A stretch of DNA of 28,113 bases from a virus. The notes under the pieces are model-generated. The model worked only from the letters and a program-made list of their open reading frames with translations. It did no database searches and was not told the origin of the DNA. Below are positions 3,804 through 28,111 of the stretch, piece by piece. The stretch covers positions 1-28,113 of the IMG/VR virus record IMGVR_UViG_3300042938_001810; one strand, written 5' to 3'. The translations under genes and the position numbers were made by a program. Within the stretch, counting starts at the first letter, position 1. Each line of letters starts with the position of its first letter.

Positions 3804-5381
3804 TTATGAAGATAATGGTATCAAAGTCTGACTAACAGTCATAGCGGTTCCTCTACCTGGTTTAATGGTAACGGCATCACTCTGAGTAATCACCTTAATG
3901 GCATTAGTTCCCGTAAACAGTGAGGGAAGAGACATATCCAGAACGGAAGATCCGTTCAGTTGCAAGTTACTAATATCCACAGTTGCATTTGTTGGAATAG
4001 TAGACGAGAACTGAATGGTTCCTTCATTCATATAGCAATTGGTAGCAGTAAAGTTTCCGTCCAAAGTAAGCACCGAAGGCTGAACCCCTGTATTGAAATA
4101 CGCGTTGGTAATGGTTGTACTCTGCTTTGTTCCTGCGGAGAGTGGGAATCCCACACGAACCGTTGGAGTCAGAGACTCAGTAGAAGCCTTACTAGGCGGA
4201 GTAAATGTAAACGAACCGTTGACGAGTACAATACCACCACTGTTTCCTCCTGATGCGCCGTCTGGTTGTACACAGGCAAAACCACTACTTGCCTGAACAT
4301 CTCCGTGAACAGTAATATCTCCGTGCATCTGTTCAATATTTTTAATACCAAAATATCGAGCAGAGGAGTCCTTATCAAAATACAAGGAATTCACATCAAA
4401 CTGAGTGCTTGTAGTGTTTCCAAAGCCGCCGTTTCCACCATTGTAGAAATACCCGTAACTTGGTTCCAAGATTAAAGCATTAACCTTTGTGCCAATACAA
4501 GTCAAATCAAGACCGCGAACAAAGTGTTGCAGGTAAATTCTGTTCCAATTACCGTACAGTTCTGTGGCTCCGTGTTTGTACGGCTGACCTAATTCGGTTG
4601 GAACTCCCGAAGACCATCCGTTAGCAATAGCACTATCGGAATTTATACCTACCCCGTATGCAAACGATTGAGGATAGTTCATCAGTCCGTACCGATTGGT
4701 TGAACCGTCCCCCAGGGTTCCCGATGTCAATCCTGCTGTAACGCCCGTCATAACAACGGTTGTATTAAATCTAGAACCATCGTTAACTGGTCCTATGACT
4801 CTCAGGGTGTAGTGTGATTGAGCAGCATACGAAATACCAGAAGTGGTTCCAAGCGTTGGACCAGTAAGATATAAAGCATTTGTCCAAACTGTTGCTGCTT
4901 CGCCTTCTTCGCCAGTACGAATCCATTCGCCGCGAGTGCCCACGGGTTCAGCCCTGTGGAATTCTAGAGCGCGAGTCATTTCAGTTAGTACTGAACTACT
5001 CACCTCTCCACCTAGTTTTCCAAACGGATACGATGGCTGAACGAATATCTGTATGAACGAATATTTTTCAGCAGTCGTGCCACCAGCAGTTGTTCCCGCC
5101 CAAGCCTTGGGGGTGCCTTCGGTGGTTACACCACCAAACAAACACGGTGAGTGTACTTGGTGTGGTGCTGGTGAGTATTGAGAAACAGCAGACGGTCCTC
5201 TTCCAAAATATACAACATCTCCACCAAACGGTGTGCGAGTGGCTGCAATGAGTTTAGCGGCAGTTCCTCCCGAACCTCCTGTTGCAATTTTCAAAGTTTT
5301 CCAGTTGCCAACAACATCCCAACAAAACGAATTAATAGATGCGGCTGTTGATCCTACCCAATAGTATGTTAGTGCTGCCAT
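3804..5381 (-). CDS. Probable virion or tail-fibre-type protein, 525 aa
   Basis: The frame can be extended to a TTG at 5414, but ATG5381 has AAGGA nine bases upstream and is preferred; the product then starts MAALTYYWVG. The protein is rich in Gly, Thr, Ser and Asn with few charged residues. Its last 200 residues read as successive short beta strands ('DITVHGDVQASSGFAC', 'SFTFTPPSKAST', 'LTLDGNFTATNCY'), suggesting a beta-helix or beta-sandwich, as in tail fibres and other surface-exposed phage proteins. There is no signal peptide. It is transcribed opposite to its neighbours, with its own CTAAATA motif upstream (5446-5452) and a terminator downstream, so it is a single-gene late unit. The exact structural role is not known. 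Confidence 0.7.
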   Translation of the reverse strand: MAALTYYWVGSTAASINSFCWDVVGNWKTLKIATGGSGGTAAKLIAATRTPFGGDVVYFGRGPSAVSQYSPAPHQVHSPCLFGGVTTEGTPKAWAGTTAGGTTAEKYSFIQIFVQPSYPFGKLGGEVSSSVLTEMTRALEFHRAEPVGTRGEWIRTGEEGEAATVWTNALYLTGPTLGTTSGISYAAQSHYTLRVIGPVNDGSRFNTTVVMTGVTAGLTSGTLGDGSTNRYGLMNYPQSFAYGVGINSDSAIANGWSSGVPTELGQPYKHGATELYGNWNRIYLQHFVRGLDLTCIGTKVNALILEPSYGYFYNGGNGGFGNTTSTQFDVNSLYFDKDSSARYFGIKNIEQMHGDITVHGDVQASSGFACVQPDGASGGNSGGIVLVNGSFTFTPPSKASTESLTPTVRVGFPLSAGTKQSTTITNAYFNTGVQPSVLTLDGNFTATNCYMNEGTIQFSSTIPTNATVDISNLQLNGSSVLDMSLPSLFTGTNAIKVITQSDAVTIKPGRGTAMTVSQTLIPLSS

Positions 5382-5445
5382 AAGTGCTTTTCCTTCTGTG
5401 AAAAGTTTATCCAATAGTTCCGAGTTTAATTAATGAATACGCCAA

Positions 5446-15820: not shown

Positions 15821-16149
15821 CCGCAGAAAATTCAAAAACTCAGTGGTCGTGGCGCAACCGATACGGTCAAGAGCGCATCACCACAAAAACAGGTGAGAAC
15901 ACTTTTACTGTTGAAGGCGCAAGTGCGTTTATTCGTTCTGCGTGGATGGAAAACGAACCTGGTGTGATTGACTTTGTAGACTTTGAAGGTGGACCGTTTA
16001 TTTGTGTGCGGTCTTCCATGTGGGAATACGGTGTTACAGGGGAAGACCGTGAGCGGGTTGTAAAGAGTGTGGCTATGTCGGCACTCAATGTAGAACTCGG
16101 CGAATTGCGGACAAGTGATTGGACTCGCGTTGAACTCACTGTTGCATAA
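15817..16149 (+). CDS. Hypothetical protein, 110 aa
   Basis: ATG15817 overlaps the preceding stop. Soluble, with 'NRYGQERITTKTGENTFTVE' (strands), 'VIDFVDFEGGPFICV' and a charged helix 'GEDRERVVKSVAMSALNVEL'. A possible weak relation to the protein at 14642-14920. The stop at 16147-16149 lies about 10 bp before the first conserved part of the tmRNA, so the tmRNA may be transcribed from upstream and processed. Confidence 0.65.
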   Translation: MTAENSKTQWSWRNRYGQERITTKTGENTFTVEGASAFIRSAWMENEPGVIDFVDFEGGPFICVRSSMWEYGVTGEDRERVVKSVAMSALNVELGELRTSDWTRVELTVA

Positions 16150-16159
16150 ATAACTTTTG

Positions 16160-16410
16160 GTATTGTTGATCTCGGAATGAAATCCGTACAAGACGGGGGT
16201 TCGAATCCCCCCGACTCCATTAGCCTAATCTAGAGCACCTGTAAAACTACGGGGTCGAAAGGAATAGATTGGCGAAGAGTAAGGATGAAGGAGATACCCG
16301 ACACGGGTAACAAGTGTCGTAAATAAACCGTTGCAAACCATGATTGCTAACCAATTAGCAATGGCGGCTTAAAGCCGTGGGGACTAGCCCTCCCGCATCT
16401 GAAAGGGCTG
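16160..16410 (+). ncRNA. ssrA: Circularly permuted tmRNA (ssrA-like) gene
   Basis: The tRNA-like 3' half comes first. A T-arm has GGGGG (16195-16199), loop TTCGAAT and CCCCC (16207-16211). Acceptor strand CGACTCC (16212-16218) and discriminator A (16219) follow. After 31 nt comes the 5' half, starting GGGGTCG (16251-16257). This pairs fully with CGACTCC and includes the G3-U wobble typical of tmRNA and tRNA-Ala. A long-range helix joins the halves (GTA-A-GGAT 16279-16286 with ATCC-G-TAC 16182-16189; GAGAT 16291-16295 with ATCTC 16169-16173). A hairpin CGACAC/GTGTCG (16299-16319) precedes the tag frame. The frame ends GCT AAC CAA TTA GCA ATG GCG GCT TAA (A-N-Q-L-A-M-A-A), with its stop in the loop of CGGCT-TAA-AGCCG. 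An H-type pseudoknot follows (GTGGG 16377-16381 with CCCGC 16392-16396; AGCCCT 16386-16391 with AGGGCT 16404-16409). Ends are approximate. Confidence 0.85.
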
Positions 16411-16436
16411 AAAGGGGAGTCGCAAGGCTCCCTTTT
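16411..16436 (+). terminator. Rho-independent terminator of the tmRNA
   Basis: GGGAG (16415-16419) pairs with CTCCC (16428-16432) with an 8-nt loop, followed by TTTT and flanked upstream by AAA. It begins directly after the last tmRNA pseudoknot. Confidence 0.75.
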
Positions 16437-16468
16437 CCATTTATACATACAATACAAGGAGATCGCGC

Positions 16469-16895: not shown

Positions 16896-16961
16896 GTAGG
16901 TATGATGTAAATGGAAACATTCCACTTCGTGGATATGCAAGTTCGAATCCTGCTACCTACA
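16896..16961 (+). tRNA. Abnormal tRNA-like element, 66 nt
   Basis: Acceptor GTAGGTA / TACCTAC is perfect. The D-arm can form ATGT/ACAT with an 8-nt loop. The T-arm GCAAG-TTCGAAT-CCTGC has one mismatch. The anticodon arm, however, is only TCCAC-TTC-GTGGA, with a 3-nt loop instead of 7, or a 3-bp stem with loop ACTTCGT lacking U33. At 66 nt it is short by about 7. It follows tRNA-Gly by 2 nt and is presumably co-transcribed. It could be a degenerate tRNA or a tRNA mimic. Confidence 0.55.
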
Positions 16962-18849: not shown

Positions 18850-19686
18850 ATGAAAAAGTTTACACAATATCTTGATGCCACGGCACTAAATGAATCGCTA
18901 AACAACAAAGAGATTACGGAAACTCCACTTGTTGAATCAAAACTGTCTCGTGTTTTCCAATATGTGGAAGACGATAAGCGTGACTTTGGAATTGTGAGCG
19001 CATCGCGTGGTGCTAATTCCGCAGAACAAAACAAAGCCAAACACGAAGAACTCAAGAAGGCGATTCGCGCTATGGGTTACGGCTACATTGAACTGCGTGG
19101 TGGCTACAAGGGTGACGAAGGTGTTGTTGAAGAACTCAGCATACTTGTTCCCAACATCAAGAAAAATCAAATCCTTTCGCTTGGACGCACATTTGGACAG
19201 CACTCTGTGATGTACAAGAACGATCAGGACTTTTACTATATTGGCACAAACGAAGAAGCAGGTATTGGCAAGGTTCTTATGAGGTTTAAGAAGGGTGAAG
19301 GACAAGAGAATCTTGAACTTGCAAAGCACAAGGTTGTAGACTTCTTCTCTCAATTAAAGAAGGGCGCACACTCAGACAAGAAGTTTGTTTTCAAGGCGAA
19401 AGACGAAACTCCCGCTGAAGGAGGAGAATCTTCTGCTGATCAACACGCTGCATCCACTCACAAAGCAGGTGATGTGTGGAAAACTTCTAGTGGGTTGTGG
19501 GGCGGCAAGAATTCACAGGGCGAATACGAATACTTTGATGATCAGCCAGCGGCAAAGAAGTACGCGAAAAACACTAAAAAGGGCTTAAAGATTCAAGAAC
19601 GCGAAGAGTGGAGTTTTTCAAAGGCTGCATATTTGAGAAGAGGCGAAGACCCCAAGTGGATAACAATTTATGAGGACTTGTCGTAA
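18850..19686 (+). CDS. DUF3293-like protein, 278 aa
   Basis: ATG18850 with AAGGAG nine bases upstream. The first half has 'DFGIVSASRGANSAEQNKAK', then 'HEELKKAIRAMGYGYIELRG' and 'LGRTFGQHSVMYKNDQDFYY'. This recalls the DUF3293-like pattern ('ii.A.r...s..eN......L...l...Gy....v.G' followed by 'la..fgQ..v.y'), known from bacteria and phages without a clear function. A Glu/Ser-rich linker (about 188-215) leads to a C-terminal domain 'VWKTSSGLWGGKNSQGEYEY' that resembles a small beta domain. A CTAAATA motif upstream suggests late expression. The family call is moderate. Confidence 0.6.
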   Translation: MKKFTQYLDATALNESLNNKEITETPLVESKLSRVFQYVEDDKRDFGIVSASRGANSAEQNKAKHEELKKAIRAMGYGYIELRGGYKGDEGVVEELSILVPNIKKNQILSLGRTFGQHSVMYKNDQDFYYIGTNEEAGIGKVLMRFKKGEGQENLELAKHKVVDFFSQLKKGAHSDKKFVFKAKDETPAEGGESSADQHAASTHKAGDVWKTSSGLWGGKNSQGEYEYFDDQPAAKKYAKNTKKGLKIQEREEWSFSKAAYLRRGEDPKWITIYEDLS

Positions 19687-21145: not shown

Positions 21146-22510
21146 TTAAACCAATAGCAAATCAGCAGTCAAGATTGGTCTGTTCATCACCGATAGAATG
21201 TCGGTGTTCAGACCAATTCTATTTTCCGAAACAGTTGTTTCGTTAAGATATACACGAACCCTATTCTGCTTCAGAGTTTCATCGGAAGTAAATTTCACGG
21301 TGAATGAGTGGGCGTTAGACGCAGCAGTTCCTGCTCGGTAATTAATTAGTAGAGTTTCACCCGCAAACAGTGCTGCAACAGCAGTCTTTGTTTGCGTGTT
21401 TGGTGATGTGATCTCTAGAATATTTGTTCCTGTAGGAATAATTGAAGTGCTGCTGAATTCTGCTGTAGTGTAGTATTCGGTAATTGCACCAAGAGAAATA
21501 CCTGTAACTACAAGTGGAGATCCTGTGTCTGTACTAGTACGACCAGTTAGTGTGCAGGTTACTGTTCCTAATACAACTCCCTGTTCGGTATCAGGAGAGA
21601 AGAACGAGAAGGTTGCGCCTACGCTTGTGGCAGCACCAAAGGAATTCCATTGCTGTACAGCAGCCGCACTATCGTCTGCAAGAGAAATTGTGGTTGAAGC
21701 ACCAACAGAAACCAATACACGAATGCCTTCAGTCTGTATTGAGTTTGTGTCTCCACCAGCAAGAAACTTACAGTTCTGTAGAGTGCCACCACCAATGGGT
21801 GTGTTCTCGCTTTCCCATGAATAAAATTCAGTAATACTTGAGGAGTTTTGTTCTCCTCTAATCAGCACTGCGAGCAGTGAAGATCCTCTAGAATCCCATA
21901 TATTTAAGAACGGGGTGAGATCAAATTTCACGATTGATCCACTCCACGAACCGATTGGTATTATTTCAGATGCCGCTGGTTCTGCGTCACCGCCTTCAAT
22001 AGTCCATCCTGTTGCAGCGGCTTCGGATGGCTTGTACCAAGACACAGACGAGTCTATAGTGGTGTCTAGAGGCAGCAGGACGGCTTCTAGAAGCCCTCCT
22101 GAAGTTCCTGTGGATCGTGTCAGCGTGAGAGTAGCATTCCCGATTGTATATGGACTACCTGCGGTATAGCCTTCTATAGTACTCACAGCAGCAGAAAAAT
22201 ATTGGCGTGGATTCAGCAGTAGCACTGTTCTAAATTCTTGTGTTTTCGTTCCACCAACCTTCAACATATTTCTAGAACGATACAGTAAGTTGCCGCTGTC
22301 CCCACCCGTGTAGTATCCAGAAATTATTTTTGTTGGTTGCTGCACATCACTCAGTTCAATAAACTTGGAACTGAACGAATCAAATGCTTTTATCTTTACT
22401 TCTGCTGAAAGATTCGTAATATAGGTATCGCTGTTTCCGTCTGATCCATATACCGTTGCTCTCACGGTCTGTGAATTAGAGTAATTATTGCGATAACTAG
22501 AGTTAAGCAT
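21146..22510 (-). CDS. Probable tail-fibre or virion protein with DNRLRE-like domain
   Basis: I choose ATG22510 (454 aa) because AGGAG lies 4 bp upstream; the longer frame to 22603 would overlap the preceding gene. The sequence is Ser/Thr/Gly-rich and strand-rich throughout. The middle ('LLLNPRQYFSAAVS', 'SVSWYKPSEAAATGWTIEGG', 'WSGSIVKFDLTPFLNIWDS') follows the pattern of DNRLRE-type beta-sandwich domains, in which 'vTW' and 'GW' precede 'v.fDlT..v..W'. Such domains occur in surface and adhesion proteins. The C-terminus is another set of strands. It lies 10 bp downstream of the 817-residue repeat protein gene, so the two form a minus-strand late operon, probably of fibre components. Confidence 0.65.
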   Translation of the reverse strand: MLNSSYRNNYSNSQTVRATVYGSDGNSDTYITNLSAEVKIKAFDSFSSKFIELSDVQQPTKIISGYYTGGDSGNLLYRSRNMLKVGGTKTQEFRTVLLLNPRQYFSAAVSTIEGYTAGSPYTIGNATLTLTRSTGTSGGLLEAVLLPLDTTIDSSVSWYKPSEAAATGWTIEGGDAEPAASEIIPIGSWSGSIVKFDLTPFLNIWDSRGSSLLAVLIRGEQNSSSITEFYSWESENTPIGGGTLQNCKFLAGGDTNSIQTEGIRVLVSVGASTTISLADDSAAAVQQWNSFGAATSVGATFSFFSPDTEQGVVLGTVTCTLTGRTSTDTGSPLVVTGISLGAITEYYTTAEFSSTSIIPTGTNILEITSPNTQTKTAVAALFAGETLLINYRAGTAASNAHSFTVKFTSDETLKQNRVRVYLNETTVSENRIGLNTDILSVMNRPILTADLLLV

Positions 22511-22520
22511 AGTGCTCCTA

Positions 22521-24974
22521 TTACGAAGCGTAGAACGAGAAGGTGATTCCTGTTCCCGTGTTGTGCGGTGCAAATCCAACCGAATACGGTGGATAAAATA
22601 CATTGATCATGTCAATGTTGTCTACTTCAAGGAATAGTTCATCTCCGTGATACATTACATACGAATATGCTCCAGCAGTAAATCCGTATGTTGATGCGTC
22701 TGTTACAGAACCAACACACATAAATTCATTTTGTGATGAGTTGGCTCCTGTGGCAATACGCGAAACCTTGATACGAACACCCGTTGCACAGGTAAATCCT
22801 GCGTTAGAGTTGTATTCGGTTAGGTTCTTTGCCACATATCCTGCAACATTTGTACGAGCCATGAACAACGGCTGTGTTGCGTTAGAATCAATTGCCACAC
22901 TAACTGAACCACTTGATACAGTATTTGCAAGAGTCTGCAACTGTGTGTTTACAGCATTCTTGACCAGTGAATAAATTGAAAGTGAATCAGTAAAGTCAAA
23001 AGCACCAACACTAACTGTTGGATCGTAAAGAGCCTTCTTTGCAGCAATCAAAAAGTCTGTATTAGTCTTGACTTGGGAAATGGTGGCATTCACTGTGGAT
23101 GTTGGAGTATCAAGATTTGCCAATTCGATTGGCATAAATCCACCCGAATATCCCTTGACGATTACTGGTCCGTTGGCAGTGTCTCCTGCAACCCACAATC
23201 CGTATTCTGCACTCGTGGTTCCCGTGACAGGAATGGGAGCATACGATGGAGCAGTAATACCAATCTGTGCGCTGAATGTGGCGTAGGCGTTAAAAGAGAA
23301 CCCTGAGTTAACAAGGTACATATTAACTGCGGCACCACACCAACCTGCACCCGTAGTACCACTAACTTGTGTTAGTGTTCCCGTTGAACTCACTGCTGCA
23401 TTCATGTATGTTGGAACAGTAGAGAAAGACAGGCTGTCTGCTGCTCCCTGACCAACAATAGTAACGGTGTCTGTGGTGTAGTTTAGATCACGAATATCAA
23501 GATCCGTAGCAGATACAGTTACACCCGTTATGGTGGACACATTCACATTCAGTGCATTGTTGGTGGAATAGACTGCTTCAATAGCAGCCGTTGAACCAGC
23601 AAAAGCGTACAAGGATGTTGGTACAGTGCTTTCGACTCCTGTGCCGTATACAGTAATATTATCTGTGGCTGCGGTAATACCGCGAATACTAAAGTCGGAA
23701 GCCTGAACATAAACAGCCGTTGCACCAGTTACTCCAAATATTCCAAGATTGGAGAAGGACGATACTGTTACGGGAAGAGGGGCACTTACAGTGATACCAA
23801 CAGGGTATCCACTTGCGATGCCTTGAATTCCCACATAATCTATTCCAGCGGTACTGCCAAGAGTAGTTCCACCGTACAGGTTTCGAATATCTAAATCGGT
23901 TGCAGATACGGTCAGAGTTCCAACTGTAATTCCTACAGCCACTCCTCCTGATACACCCACAACGGTTAGAGATGTTCCTGTTGTACCCACAATGGTTGTG
24001 GCAAGACTATAAATTGCAGATGGAGCAAGGAATTCATATCTTCCCCATGAACCGCAAAGACCCACTGGAAGGGGCGCGGAAGCCTGAACATAAACAGCCG
24101 TTGCGCCTGTTACTCCGAATATTCCAAGATTGGATAAGGATAGATTAGCGAAAGACGATACGGTTACAGGAATAGGAGAACTTACGGTGATACCAACAGG
24201 GTATCCGCTTTCAATTCCTTGAATACCAACATAGTCTATTCCAACAGTGCTTCCACTAGAGGTTCCACCGTATAGATTTCGAATACTGAAACTGCTACCC
24301 ACAACATTCAGCGTTCCAACTGTAATACCAACAGGGTATCCACTTTCGATTCCTTGAATACCAACATAATCTATTCCAACAGTACTTCCACTAGAGGTTC
24401 CACCGTATAGGTTTCGAATACTGAAACTGCTACCCGCAACATTCAGCGTTCCAACTGTGATGCCTACAGCAACTCCTCCTGATACACCAGCAACATTCAG
24501 CGTTCCAACCGTGATGCCTACAGCAACTCCTCCTGATACACCAGTAACGGTGAGAGATGTTCCTGTTGTGCCCACAATGGTTGTGGCAAGACTATAAAAT
24601 CCAGATGTAGGCAGAAATTCATATCTTCCCCATGAGCCAGTAAGACCCACTGGAGCAACATTCAGCGTTCCAACTGTAATACCTATAGGAACTCCTCCTC
24701 CCGATACACCCATAACGGTAAGAGATGTTCCTGTGGTGCCTACAATGGTTGTGGCAAGACTGTAAATTCCAGATGAAGCAAGAAAATCATAGTTTGCCCA
24801 TGAGCCAGAAAGACCCACTGGAAGGGGCGCGGAGCCACTTGCATATATTACTGTGTCGTCTGCACCGTAGGCAATCTTGACAATTTGATGATGTGCGGTA
24901 TTGACATAATCGCTGGCTATGGTATAACTAATACCATCAGTAACAATGTTGTAGTTGTCGCTAGTCGCTGCCAT
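22521..24974 (-). CDS. Long repetitive beta-structured virion protein, probable tail fibre or adhesin
   Basis: 817 residues starting at ATG24974 (GGAGAAG upstream). The first two thirds are made of shuffled modules: 'GSW..Y.FL' leading to 'YSLATTIVGTTGTSLTV' (three copies); 'VGITVGTLNV' and variants (at least five); 'IRNLYGGT..GST.GIDYVG' followed by 'IQGI.SGYPVGITV' (three); 'LGIFGVTGATAVYVQAS' (two). The C-terminal 250 residues are unique ('SLSIYSLVKNAVNTQLQTLA', 'GFTCATGVRIKVSRI', 'YVMYHGDELFLEVDNI') and may be the tip or a capping domain. Composition is almost free of charge, as in beta-rich fibres. Opposite to the flanking plus-strand genes; function inferred from composition. Confidence 0.7.
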   Translation of the reverse strand: MAATSDNYNIVTDGISYTIASDYVNTAHHQIVKIAYGADDTVIYASGSAPLPVGLSGSWANYDFLASSGIYSLATTIVGTTGTSLTVMGVSGGGVPIGITVGTLNVAPVGLTGSWGRYEFLPTSGFYSLATTIVGTTGTSLTVTGVSGGVAVGITVGTLNVAGVSGGVAVGITVGTLNVAGSSFSIRNLYGGTSSGSTVGIDYVGIQGIESGYPVGITVGTLNVVGSSFSIRNLYGGTSSGSTVGIDYVGIQGIESGYPVGITVSSPIPVTVSSFANLSLSNLGIFGVTGATAVYVQASAPLPVGLCGSWGRYEFLAPSAIYSLATTIVGTTGTSLTVVGVSGGVAVGITVGTLTVSATDLDIRNLYGGTTLGSTAGIDYVGIQGIASGYPVGITVSAPLPVTVSSFSNLGIFGVTGATAVYVQASDFSIRGITAATDNITVYGTGVESTVPTSLYAFAGSTAAIEAVYSTNNALNVNVSTITGVTVSATDLDIRDLNYTTDTVTIVGQGAADSLSFSTVPTYMNAAVSSTGTLTQVSGTTGAGWCGAAVNMYLVNSGFSFNAYATFSAQIGITAPSYAPIPVTGTTSAEYGLWVAGDTANGPVIVKGYSGGFMPIELANLDTPTSTVNATISQVKTNTDFLIAAKKALYDPTVSVGAFDFTDSLSIYSLVKNAVNTQLQTLANTVSSGSVSVAIDSNATQPLFMARTNVAGYVAKNLTEYNSNAGFTCATGVRIKVSRIATGANSSQNEFMCVGSVTDASTYGFTAGAYSYVMYHGDELFLEVDNIDMINVFYPPYSVGFAPHNTGTGITFSFYAS
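23690..24850 (-). repeat. Coding direct repeats in the fibre-type gene
   Basis: Several 30-100 bp segments recur at high identity, for example the modules at about 24185-24300 and 24320-24430 (both encoding the IRNLYGGTSSGSTVG module) and at about 23820-23890. They keep the reading frame, so they are protein-module repeats. High DNA identity points to recent duplication or gene conversion. Confidence 0.75.
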
Positions 24975-26331: not shown

Positions 26332-26361
26332 GGGGCGCACTTCGGTGCGCCTCTTTGTTTT
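26332..26361. terminator. Bidirectional Rho-independent terminator
   Basis: GGGGCGCAC (26332-26340), TTCG tetraloop, GTGCGCCTC (26345-26353), then TTTGTTTT. It ends gp32, and read on the other strand it ends the convergent gene at 26360. Confidence 0.9.
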
Positions 26362-28111
26362 ATGGCATAATAGAGTATGCTTGCATCTGCTTGATGGTTG
26401 GTTCGTTGTTACGAATTCGAATATCATCATTGAAATTGTTTGTGGTGTTGCTAATCTTGTTCTGCACATTTGCAGTGTTGTTTGTGTTACCACCTGTAGC
26501 CGTGGGCATATTACGAGCCTCGTTCAATCCGTTCTGTTCTGCTGTGGCTTGAGCAACCATTCTACCCACAGTTGTGTTTGCGGTAGCAGGATTCGTAACC
26601 TTCCCTTCCACTGTAGTACTGCTTGATGCACCACCTTCTGCCGCTGTCCCCGTTGCACTTGTAGCAGCAGCAGTAATTGCGTTTTCTGCTTCTTTCCCTG
26701 TTTTCTGATCTTCGGTTCCGCCTACTTCAATCAGAGAACCAACACCAGGAATGGAAGCCACCATGTCGTAGATACCCTTGCCGCCAATTTGGTCTGCAAG
26801 CATTTCTGCTAATTTTCCACCAACCCATCCTCCACCAAGAGTTCCTACTAAGGTTCCAATTCCTGGAACGGGTATGAGTGTTCCTAGTGCACCACCACCA
26901 ATAGTTCCGAGTGCTTGACCAAGAGTTCCAACAATAGATCGACCTATTTTTTCTTTCTTTTCATCTACTGATAGTTCAGGATCACTTTTAATAGATGCAA
27001 TATCTACAGCCCCCATTACTGTTGATATAACGGCACCAAGACCAGGAAAACTAACAATGCTCTTCGCAACCTTTCCTGCATTTTTTCCAATAAAGGAACT
27101 TAATCCTTTCACTGGATTCATGCTGCTTAGTGCTGATCCTGCTTTTGCTGCAAGGTTGCTAAAGAATCCACCACCAGTACTAGCAACACCTGATGCTGCT
27201 TGACCTGCTCCACCAAGAGCACTTTTTCCTAGATTCATTGCTCCACCAACAGCACTCTTTCCTAGATTCATTGCTCCACCAACAGCACTCTTTCCTAGAT
27301 TCATTGCTCCCTTAGCAACACCTGATGCTGCTTGACCTACTTTACCGATAGTACTCTTTCCTAGATTCATTGCTCCCTTGGCAACATCAGTATTTGCAAT
27401 ACTACTGATAGCACTCTTGCTTAGATTTGCTACTCTACCAACAGCACTCTTGCCTAGATTCAGTGCTCCCTTGGCAACACCTGATGCCGCTTGACCTGCT
27501 CCACCAAGAACACTCTTACCTAAATTCATTGCTCCGCCGAGAACACTCTTACCTAAATTCATTGCTCCCTTAGCAACACCTGATGCTGCTTGACCTACTT
27601 TACCGATAGCACTCTTACCTAAATTCATTGCTCCCTTAGCAACACCTGATGCTGCTTCACTTACTCCACTAACAGCACTCTTGCCTAGATTCAGTGCTCC
27701 CTTGGTAACACCTGATGCTGCTTCACTTACTCCACTAACAGCACTCTTGCCTAGATTCAGTGCTCCCTTGGTAACACCTGATACCGATTTTCCTATTGAG
27801 GCAGTATCTTTATACAATGATGTTGTTTTAAATAACTCTAGGGATTTGGCTCCTCCAAATTTAGAAATCAATCCGCCAGCACCACGCAGTCCCTTCACTG
27901 CCAATCCGCCAGCACCACGAAGTCCCTTCACTGCCAATCCGCCAGCACCACGAAGTCCCTTCACTGCCAATCCGCCAGCACCACGCAGTCCCTTCATTGC
28001 TAGACTTGGAGCACCCAATAGTGCACTACCAATGGATTCTGCACCGCTTGCAATACTAGACATGATGCCTCCACCACCACCCATTCCTCTTAATTTCTCA
28101 AGAAGAGAGGA
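26360..28111 (-). CDS. Repetitive Gly/Ala-rich virion protein, tape-measure-like, N-terminus outside the window
   Basis: The frame is open to the window edge. The ATG at 28084 has no spaced ribosome site, and nine further codons (ending LLEKLRG) continue upstream, so the gene is probably longer. The N-terminal part has four copies of an 11-residue unit (KGLRGAGGLAV). About ten variants of a unit built on 'GAMNLGKSAVGG' and 'VGQAASGVAK' follow, likely an amphipathic helical array. Next is a Gly-zipper-like hydrophobic segment ('LGTIGGGALGTLIPVPGIGT', 'LVGTLGGGWVGGKLAEML') that could span a membrane. The tail is Asn/Thr-rich. Length, repeats and hydrophobic zipper suit a tape-measure or ejected membrane-channel protein; this is inference. 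Confidence 0.65.
   Translation of the reverse strand, partial: SSLLEKLRGMGGGGGIMSSIASGAESIGSALLGAPSLAMKGLRGAGGLAVKGLRGAGGLAVKGLRGAGGLAVKGLRGAGGLISKFGGAKSLELFKTTSLYKDTASIGKSVSGVTKGALNLGKSAVSGVSEAASGVTKGALNLGKSAVSGVSEAASGVAKGAMNLGKSAIGKVGQAASGVAKGAMNLGKSVLGGAMNLGKSVLGGAGQAASGVAKGALNLGKSAVGRVANLSKSAISSIANTDVAKGAMNLGKSTIGKVGQAASGVAKGAMNLGKSAVGGAMNLGKSAVGGAMNLGKSALGGAGQAASGVASTGGGFFSNLAAKAGSALSSMNPVKGLSSFIGKNAGKVAKSIVSFPGLGAVISTVMGAVDIASIKSDPELSVDEKKEKIGRSIVGTLGQALGTIGGGALGTLIPVPGIGTLVGTLGGGWVGGKLAEMLADQIGGKGIYDMVASIPGVGSLIEVGGTEDQKTGKEAENAITAAATSATGTAAEGGASSSTTVEGKVTNPATANTTVGRMVAQATAEQNGLNEARNMPTATGGNTNNTANVQNKISNTTNNFNDDIRIRNNEPTIKQMQAYSIMP
27180..27785 (-). repeat. Coding repeats (LGKSA units)
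   Basis: On the plus strand, segments such as CTCTTTCCTAGATTCATTGC and ACACCTGATGCTGCTT recur many times, in spacings from about 33 to 70 bp. They encode the LGKSA / QAASGVAK modules of the virion protein and stay in frame. Confidence 0.8.
27871..28002 (-). repeat. Four tandem 33-bp coding repeats
   Basis: Units start at 27871, 27904, 27937 and 27970, each beginning ATCCGCCAGCACCACG on the plus strand and differing at one to a few bases. They encode the 11-residue unit KGLRGAGGLAV. There are no spacers, so this is not CRISPR. Confidence 0.92.

Follow-up and report, generated by a model that had tools for sequence, protein, structure and literature searches.

A phage-encoded permuted tmRNA gene in a T4-like viral contig, with a candidate structured RNA in the spacer of its relatives

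The window examined here is the whole 28,113-nt viral contig IMGVR_UViG_3300042938_001810. On its plus strand it carries a locus in which the 3' half of a tRNA-like domain lies upstream of the 5' half, the two being joined through a 7-bp acceptor stem with a G3-U70 pair. The acceptor piece, or tRNA-like 3' half, occupies 16159-16219, as delimited by a match to the Rfam model RF04321 and by direct reading of the 3' flank. It was found by reading to contain a T-arm, GGGGG-TTCGAAT-CCCCC (16195-16211), the acceptor 3' strand CGACTCC (16212-16218) and a discriminator A (16219), and no CCA end is encoded. A spacer predicted to be excised (16220-16250) is followed by the coding piece (16251-16436, the 3' end being approximate), which comprises the 5' half and the mRNA-like domain and was delimited with RF04321 and RF01850. 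It opens with the acceptor 5' strand GGGGUCG (16251-16257), which is fully complementary to 16212-16218 including the wobble, a pairing given by reading, by RF04321 and by the covariation described below. The positions of the T-arm, CGACTCC and GGGGTCG in the original prediction, which had been made from the letters alone, were confirmed by this reading. Helices linking the two halves had also been predicted, with their first strand within 16169-16189. Such a helix exists, but the Rfam alignment and the compensatory types in relatives place the outer one slightly outside that range, with GGUAU at 16159-16163 pairing with AUACC at 16294-16298.

The remainder of the coding piece consists of a hairpin, CGACAC/GUGUCG (16299-16319), a tag hairpin, AUUGCUAA-CCAA-UUAGCAAU (16343-16362), within the tag frame (16346-16372), a stop-codon hairpin, CGGCU-UAA-AGCCG (16365-16377), and an H-type pseudoknot (16378-16409) with stems S1 (16378-16382/16391-16395) and S2 (16386-16390/16405-16409). 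The hairpin, the tag frame with its stop in a hairpin loop, and the pseudoknot stand in the order that had been anticipated. The terminator expected after them is weak: a 3' hairpin with a short T run (16412-16434) was read directly as a possible terminator, but it was not called by a strict terminator scan. A late-promoter-like motif, CATAAATA, lies upstream of the gene at 16145-16152.

The tmRNA programs that had been proposed as checks were divided over the window copy. RF04321 (tmRNA_permuted) matched 16159-16372 over the full model with 73.6 bits, above its gathering threshold of 47 (E = 1.3e-12). The match to RF01850 (beta_tmRNA) at 16106-16438 also covered the full model (54.8 bits; E = 6.7e-16 in a 701-base search) and remained below the gathering threshold of 84. 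ARAGORN did not call the window copy, but it does call tmRNAs in relatives of the window. When the two pieces were co-folded, with the first base omitted, the acceptor and T stems formed, the D-loop region paired with the 5' region of the first piece, and the linking helix was not made; the energy was better than in all but 3 of 200 mononucleotide shuffles.

The covariation of the acceptor stem among related phages, which had likewise been proposed as a check, was assessed in viral contigs. The exact junction pattern was found in eight IMG/VR stretches, seven of which were above the RF04321 cut-off, the eighth (L008) being incomplete in its stored locus. A candidate set of 87 was made up of the window plus 86 loci, near-identical sequences among them, and drew in part on two scans that did not constrain the acceptor. 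In a search with GGG and TCC as fixed terminal bases of the acceptor strands, which imposes pairs 1-3, a full 7-bp stem was found in 80 of the 87, in nine stem types. Pairs 4-7 varied with compensation (pair 4: GC, AU, CG; pair 5: UA, CG; pair 6: CG, UG, UA; pair 7: GC, AU). Seven candidates failed. Locus ends truncate L200 and L202; direct reading showed a single mismatch in L141 and in L172, a mismatched T-stem in L194 and an atypical T-arm in L169; the seventh is L156. The search was repeated without required bases, still choosing the best-pairing position within a 35-base range, on 80 loci from the two acceptor-unconstrained scans (three unrelated loci removed). Eight of these were without anchor or T-arm. 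Full pairing was found in 65 of the 72 anchored loci, L141 and L172 paired at 6/7, and in five cases, L130 plus four loci of the L147 kind, the anchor fell on a wrong T-arm; both of these kinds have full acceptor stems in the search requiring GGG and TCC. G3-U70 was present in all 67 correctly anchored loci, while pair 4 was GC, CG or AU. Because the neighbours of the wobble change while the wobble stays, alanine identity appears from these comparisons to be under selection inside phages.

The linking helix was located by sequence anchors with pairing ignored, and all five pairs were found in 73 of 79 loci (L091 having no anchor). Compensatory types in the relatives included GGTAT/ATACC, GACAT/ATGTC, GATAT/ATATC and AATGC/GCATT. 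The six remaining loci are of the window and L131 kinds, for which an earlier, wrong anchor was taken; the Rfam alignment gives GGUAU/AUACC in both. On the two points on which the original prediction had staked itself, a tmRNA model above threshold and covariation of the acceptor stem, the results came out for a tmRNA, and its central claim of a phage-encoded, circularly permuted tmRNA is borne out by the Rfam score and the covariation.

In the RF01850 alignment, the frame GCT AAC CAA TTA GCA ATG GCG GCT TAA at 16346-16372 encodes the tag ANQLAMAA, with GCU as the putative resume codon, and ends in Ala-Ala-stop ahead of the pseudoknot. The same tag was reported by ARAGORN in the relative L007, and its other tags among the relatives were AAPMAMAA, GAQMRLAA, ANRLAMAA and ANDMRIAA. 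A tag-hairpin pattern built on AN-x-LAMAA recovered 55 viral stretches, all 55 with an in-frame 8-residue tag ending in AA-stop, where x is Q, E, R, K or N; AAPMAMAA lies outside this pattern, as do AAPMRMAA and ANEMAMAA, two further tags of relatives found by reading. An alternative frame, GCA AAC CAT GAT TGC TAA (ANHDC), resembles what we take to be the alpha resume site; it was rejected, as the beta alignment, ARAGORN on L007 and the 55 relatives support the frame from GCU to ANQLAMAA.

It was noted that in 84,980 species genomes the tag-hairpin pattern found no tmRNA. Its two matches, in a Bryobacter MAG and in Acidovorax temperans, were rejected since the reading frame either stays open or closes only at a later stop, and the 8-kb loci around them gave no Rfam match that reached a family's cut-off. 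Since the pattern fixes most of the tag, this result describes phage restriction within these collections and not the range of tags. When 114 genomes of the class to which the Acidovorax genome belongs were searched with RF01850, one exceeded the cut-off; 69 matched at E up to 0.001, the other 68 weakly. The AN-x-LAMAA clade may be what is new at this locus, its tag having been seen so far only in phages.

Conservation of the coding piece was assessed in an alignment of 38 of the 58 distinct coding pieces, hand-chosen for spread, with L091 left out. The helices were paired in 89.2% of cells compared with 34-49% for slid partners, and both-side changes were seen in 14 of 29 pairs, with 89 such cells compared with 27.3 in shuffles. 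Further pair types, one of five measures, were not above shuffles (411 of 500 at least as high). Pairing reached 93.4% of cells in the hairpin at 16299-16319 (both-side changes in 4 of 6 pairs), 86.5% in the tag hairpin (3 of 8 pairs, with the innermost one unpaired in 23 of the 38 pieces) and 98.4% in the stop-codon hairpin (2 of 5 pairs). In the pseudoknot, S1 was paired in 97.4% of cells with no covariation, being too invariant to test, and S2, which falls where the alignment has gaps, changed on both sides in all five pairs but was paired in just 67.5% of its cells.

The assignment of the window phage as T4-like, made in the original prediction, is supported by a gene in the window for a gp32-like single-strand DNA binding protein (phrog_224; E = 2.2e-118) and by gp23, present in 10 of the 16 long contigs of relatives. 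The best-ranked phage records for the gp32-like protein were a marine virus and cyanophages at 55-56% identity, and the gp23 of one relative was approximately 58% identical to proteins of a marine virus, cyanophages and Pelagibacter phage HTVC008M. Of the 45 distinct relatives that could be anchored (10 further loci had no anchor), 27 have TAAATA in the 30 nt preceding the anchor, compared with about 2% of 30-nt windows on the plus strand of the window contig. The motif resembles what we presume to be the T4 late promoter core, TATAAATA, and the cyanophage form CTAAATA. Several relatives without TAAATA seem, by reading, to have a tRNA gene ending there instead. SmpB was not found in sets of 11 and 16 records, all possibly incomplete, and the host is therefore presumably its supplier. 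In blastn searches against 50,697 phage records, the tmRNA regions of L007 and L150 gave only short matches covering 6-10% of the query among the matches listed, and the spacer region of L137 gave none.

Other features were recorded in the window. Seven tRNAs were called by ARAGORN, by reading none with an encoded CCA end, and a short tRNA-like gene at 16896-16961, just after tRNA-Gly, was found by Rfam (42 bits) and not by ARAGORN. A PHROG match was absent for 7 of the 10 window proteins tested. Long frames without such a match, some of which may not be genes, lie on the minus strand at 3804-5414, 21146-22603, 22521-24974 and 26360-28084, and a frame on the plus strand at 18850-19686 matched a SAM-dependent methyltransferase (phrog_2226; E = 7.3e-9).

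No permuted tmRNA in a T4-like phage had been known to the original prediction, and this part does not stand. The sections of PMC9004378 on the T4-like Methylophilales phage Melnitz describe a two-piece tmRNA, and HTVC008M scored 90.6 bits with RF04321, the only one over the cut-off among five T4-like records tested, which were picked from the best gp23 matches. The same sections report tmRNAs in 402 of 18,146 phage genomes, 133 of them unique; 53 of the 133 were two-piece by ARAGORN, 50 of these 53 coming from marine or aquatic samples (PMC9004378). The passages of PMC11915505 on phage tmRNAs give 79 unique bacteriophage sequences and introduce RF04321. Melnitz and HTVC008M are like the window in having a permuted tmRNA in an aquatic T4-like phage. 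However, the Melnitz gene is characterized in those sections as alphaproteobacterial-like, with an early promoter and a glutamine riboswitch in the 3' domain of ssrA (PMC9004378), the nearest parallel to the spacer RNA considered below, whereas the window has beta_tmRNA as its best-scoring older subtype model, an AN-x-LAMAA tag and a late-promoter-like upstream motif. The betaproteobacterial two-piece tmRNA of RF01850 aligns over its full length with tag, stop and pseudoknot in the same order, but the window scores below that threshold, has a shorter tag segment than the model and does not encode CCA.

Other viral permuted tmRNAs have other tags, such as ANDDNFAHGDFALAA and GEQVELAMAA, and other spacers. 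Among 50 hand-picked IMG/VR records with the junction pattern, 49 were above the RF04321 cut-off, which is not a rate, the 50 having been drawn from at least 120 loci, 49 of them from the 78 fully paired ones plus L038. It was also noted that at least 120 stretches of viral contigs carry the junction pattern, that 78 of those listed have a fully paired acceptor, and that 48 of 49 tested are above the RF04321 cut-off. Permuted tmRNAs look, from such matches, to be common in viral contigs. The kind is already known from other aquatic phages, and any novelty would lie in the clade, in its tag and in the RNA that its relatives have in the spacer.

Three other readings of the locus were weighed. 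A chance resemblance around a tRNA-like T-arm draws on nothing but the missed ARAGORN call and is practically negligible, having been refuted by the Rfam E-value of 1.3e-12 and by covariation across dozens of phage contigs. It is also improbable that the gene is a decayed tmRNA, captured from a bacterium and now drifting, whose D-loop has changed, whose spacer has been deleted and which is nonfunctional in the window phage. The ARAGORN result would fit such decay, as would the spacer, a deletion remnant, and the D-loop, which is GGAAUAGAUUG in the window and GGUUUCGAC (UUCGAC) in the models, relatives showing forms such as GGAAUCGAC. However, the AUAGAUUG D-loop is shared with L131, L144 and L150, all of which have long spacers, and is therefore inherited and not a fresh lesion. 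The same sequence as in the window is contained in two further contigs (L005 and L006), which may be the same virus population, and the tag frame and stems are intact.

A role as a decoy or inhibitor of host trans-translation is less improbable than decay and still unlikely. Such an RNA would sequester SmpB or ribosomes, or would swap the host tag and so give tagged proteins another fate. The 8-residue tag ending in MAA would suit this, its tag-hairpin pattern occurring in no tmRNA of the species genomes scanned, and the phage tmRNA of DS6A, which has no CDS, is described in the relevant passages of PMC11915505 as inhibiting the endogenous tmRNA in E. coli. Against this, the window gene differs from that of DS6A in possessing a complete tag frame with its stop and a pseudoknot, all supported by covariation.

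We consider it highly probable that at this locus a T4-like phage encodes a permuted, two-piece tmRNA that works in ribosome rescue and tagging. This reading builds on the anatomy, the model score, the covariation and the phage context, and it follows established tmRNA biology for transcription, cleavage, charging, rescue and degradation. Counting against it are the missed ARAGORN call, the D-loop differing from that of the models, the RF01850 score under its threshold, the unencoded CCA, the negative SmpB searches, a co-fold in which the linking helix was not made, and the one covariation measure that did not rise above shuffles. The transcript would probably start at a late promoter just upstream, and host tRNA-processing enzymes would excise the spacer at 16220-16250, RNase P producing the 5' end at G16251 and 3' trimming leaving A16219, to which CCA would then be added. 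The acceptor stem and the linking helix would keep the two pieces together. The RNA would be charged with alanine by the host via G3-U70 and brought by host SmpB and EF-Tu to stalled ribosomes, where translation would resume at GCU, adding ANQLAMAA and leading to degradation.

The spacer was examined in the relatives, in many of which 72-110 nt, counted from the discriminator up to the 5' half, make up a folded stretch. The 32-nt window stretch A16219-C16250 agrees with the 96 nt of L131 over its first 30 bases and over its last 2, and by this comparison the window spacer is a deletion remnant, 64 nt shorter than that of L131. Elsewhere the spacer has 7-14, 28 or 40 nt; L154 and L170 carry a different insert of about 123 nt. 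These two inserts (124 and 123 nt) are similar to each other and end in a T-arm-like stretch, and ARAGORN called neither a tRNA nor a tmRNA there. The folded element, of approximately 70 nt, consists of a pair of hairpins whose loops are complementary, with a third hairpin in some cases, and occurs on the minus strand at L131:900-995, L137:2235-2306 and L142:13956-14065, and in others. Of the 52 IMG/VR stretches recovered with the pattern CAAGUCCUC..RCAG.GGGGCA, 49 are located at a permuted tmRNA, including two that are truncated by the end of the locus, and the other three (L184, L189, L205) share one unrelated context.

In an alignment of 35 distinct spacers of 60-112 nt, with the structure taken from L131, the hairpins, the loop-loop pairing and the optional third hairpin were paired in 90.6% of cells compared with 39-53% when slid, and 14 of 26 pairs had both-side changes (66 such cells compared with 23.8 in shuffles). 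Further pair types were not above shuffles (489 of 500). The loop-loop helix was paired in every cell and varied in one of four pairs, so that its own covariation is thin, and in the first long helix two pairs fail in 24 and 15 of the 35 spacers. Folding energy was more than 3 standard deviations better than shuffles in three of six spacers and not in the other three, and the predicted fold of the L201 spacer was without the first hairpin. A model of the element matched 26 of 39 records, once each and always at the tmRNA spacer by coordinates, with none in the window; it was built from the 35-spacer alignment, and matches in those records are expected by construction.

Rfam searches of the spacers gave nothing beyond chance level and no family for the element. 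A twister-sister or HDV-like ribozyme, suspected from short motifs that presumably belong to these classes, was rejected; no Rfam ribozyme matched in six loci (E up to 1) or in two spacers with flanks (E up to 10). LOOT RNA (RF03000) was rejected likewise: none of 39 records exceeded its cut-off (46.4), the scores being 16.6 bits on the L137 spacer and 17.9 bits elsewhere in the L191 record. No paper on a structured RNA in a permuted-tmRNA spacer was found in the open-licence literature. We lean slightly towards a new structured RNA class in the spacer of the relatives, about 70 nt long with two loop-pairing hairpins and sometimes a third, present once per contig and only there. It might help in cutting the precursor, as a ribozyme or processing signal, or be a cargo, a small regulatory RNA released by tmRNA maturation, and the window phage would have lost about two thirds of it.

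For these phages, a rescue RNA of their own raises a testable question, namely whether it provides extra rescue late in infection or replaces the degradation tag of the host. Should the spacer RNA prove real, what is cut out of a permuted tmRNA could no longer be regarded as simple waste, and an established maturation route would either supply a new RNA or rely on one.
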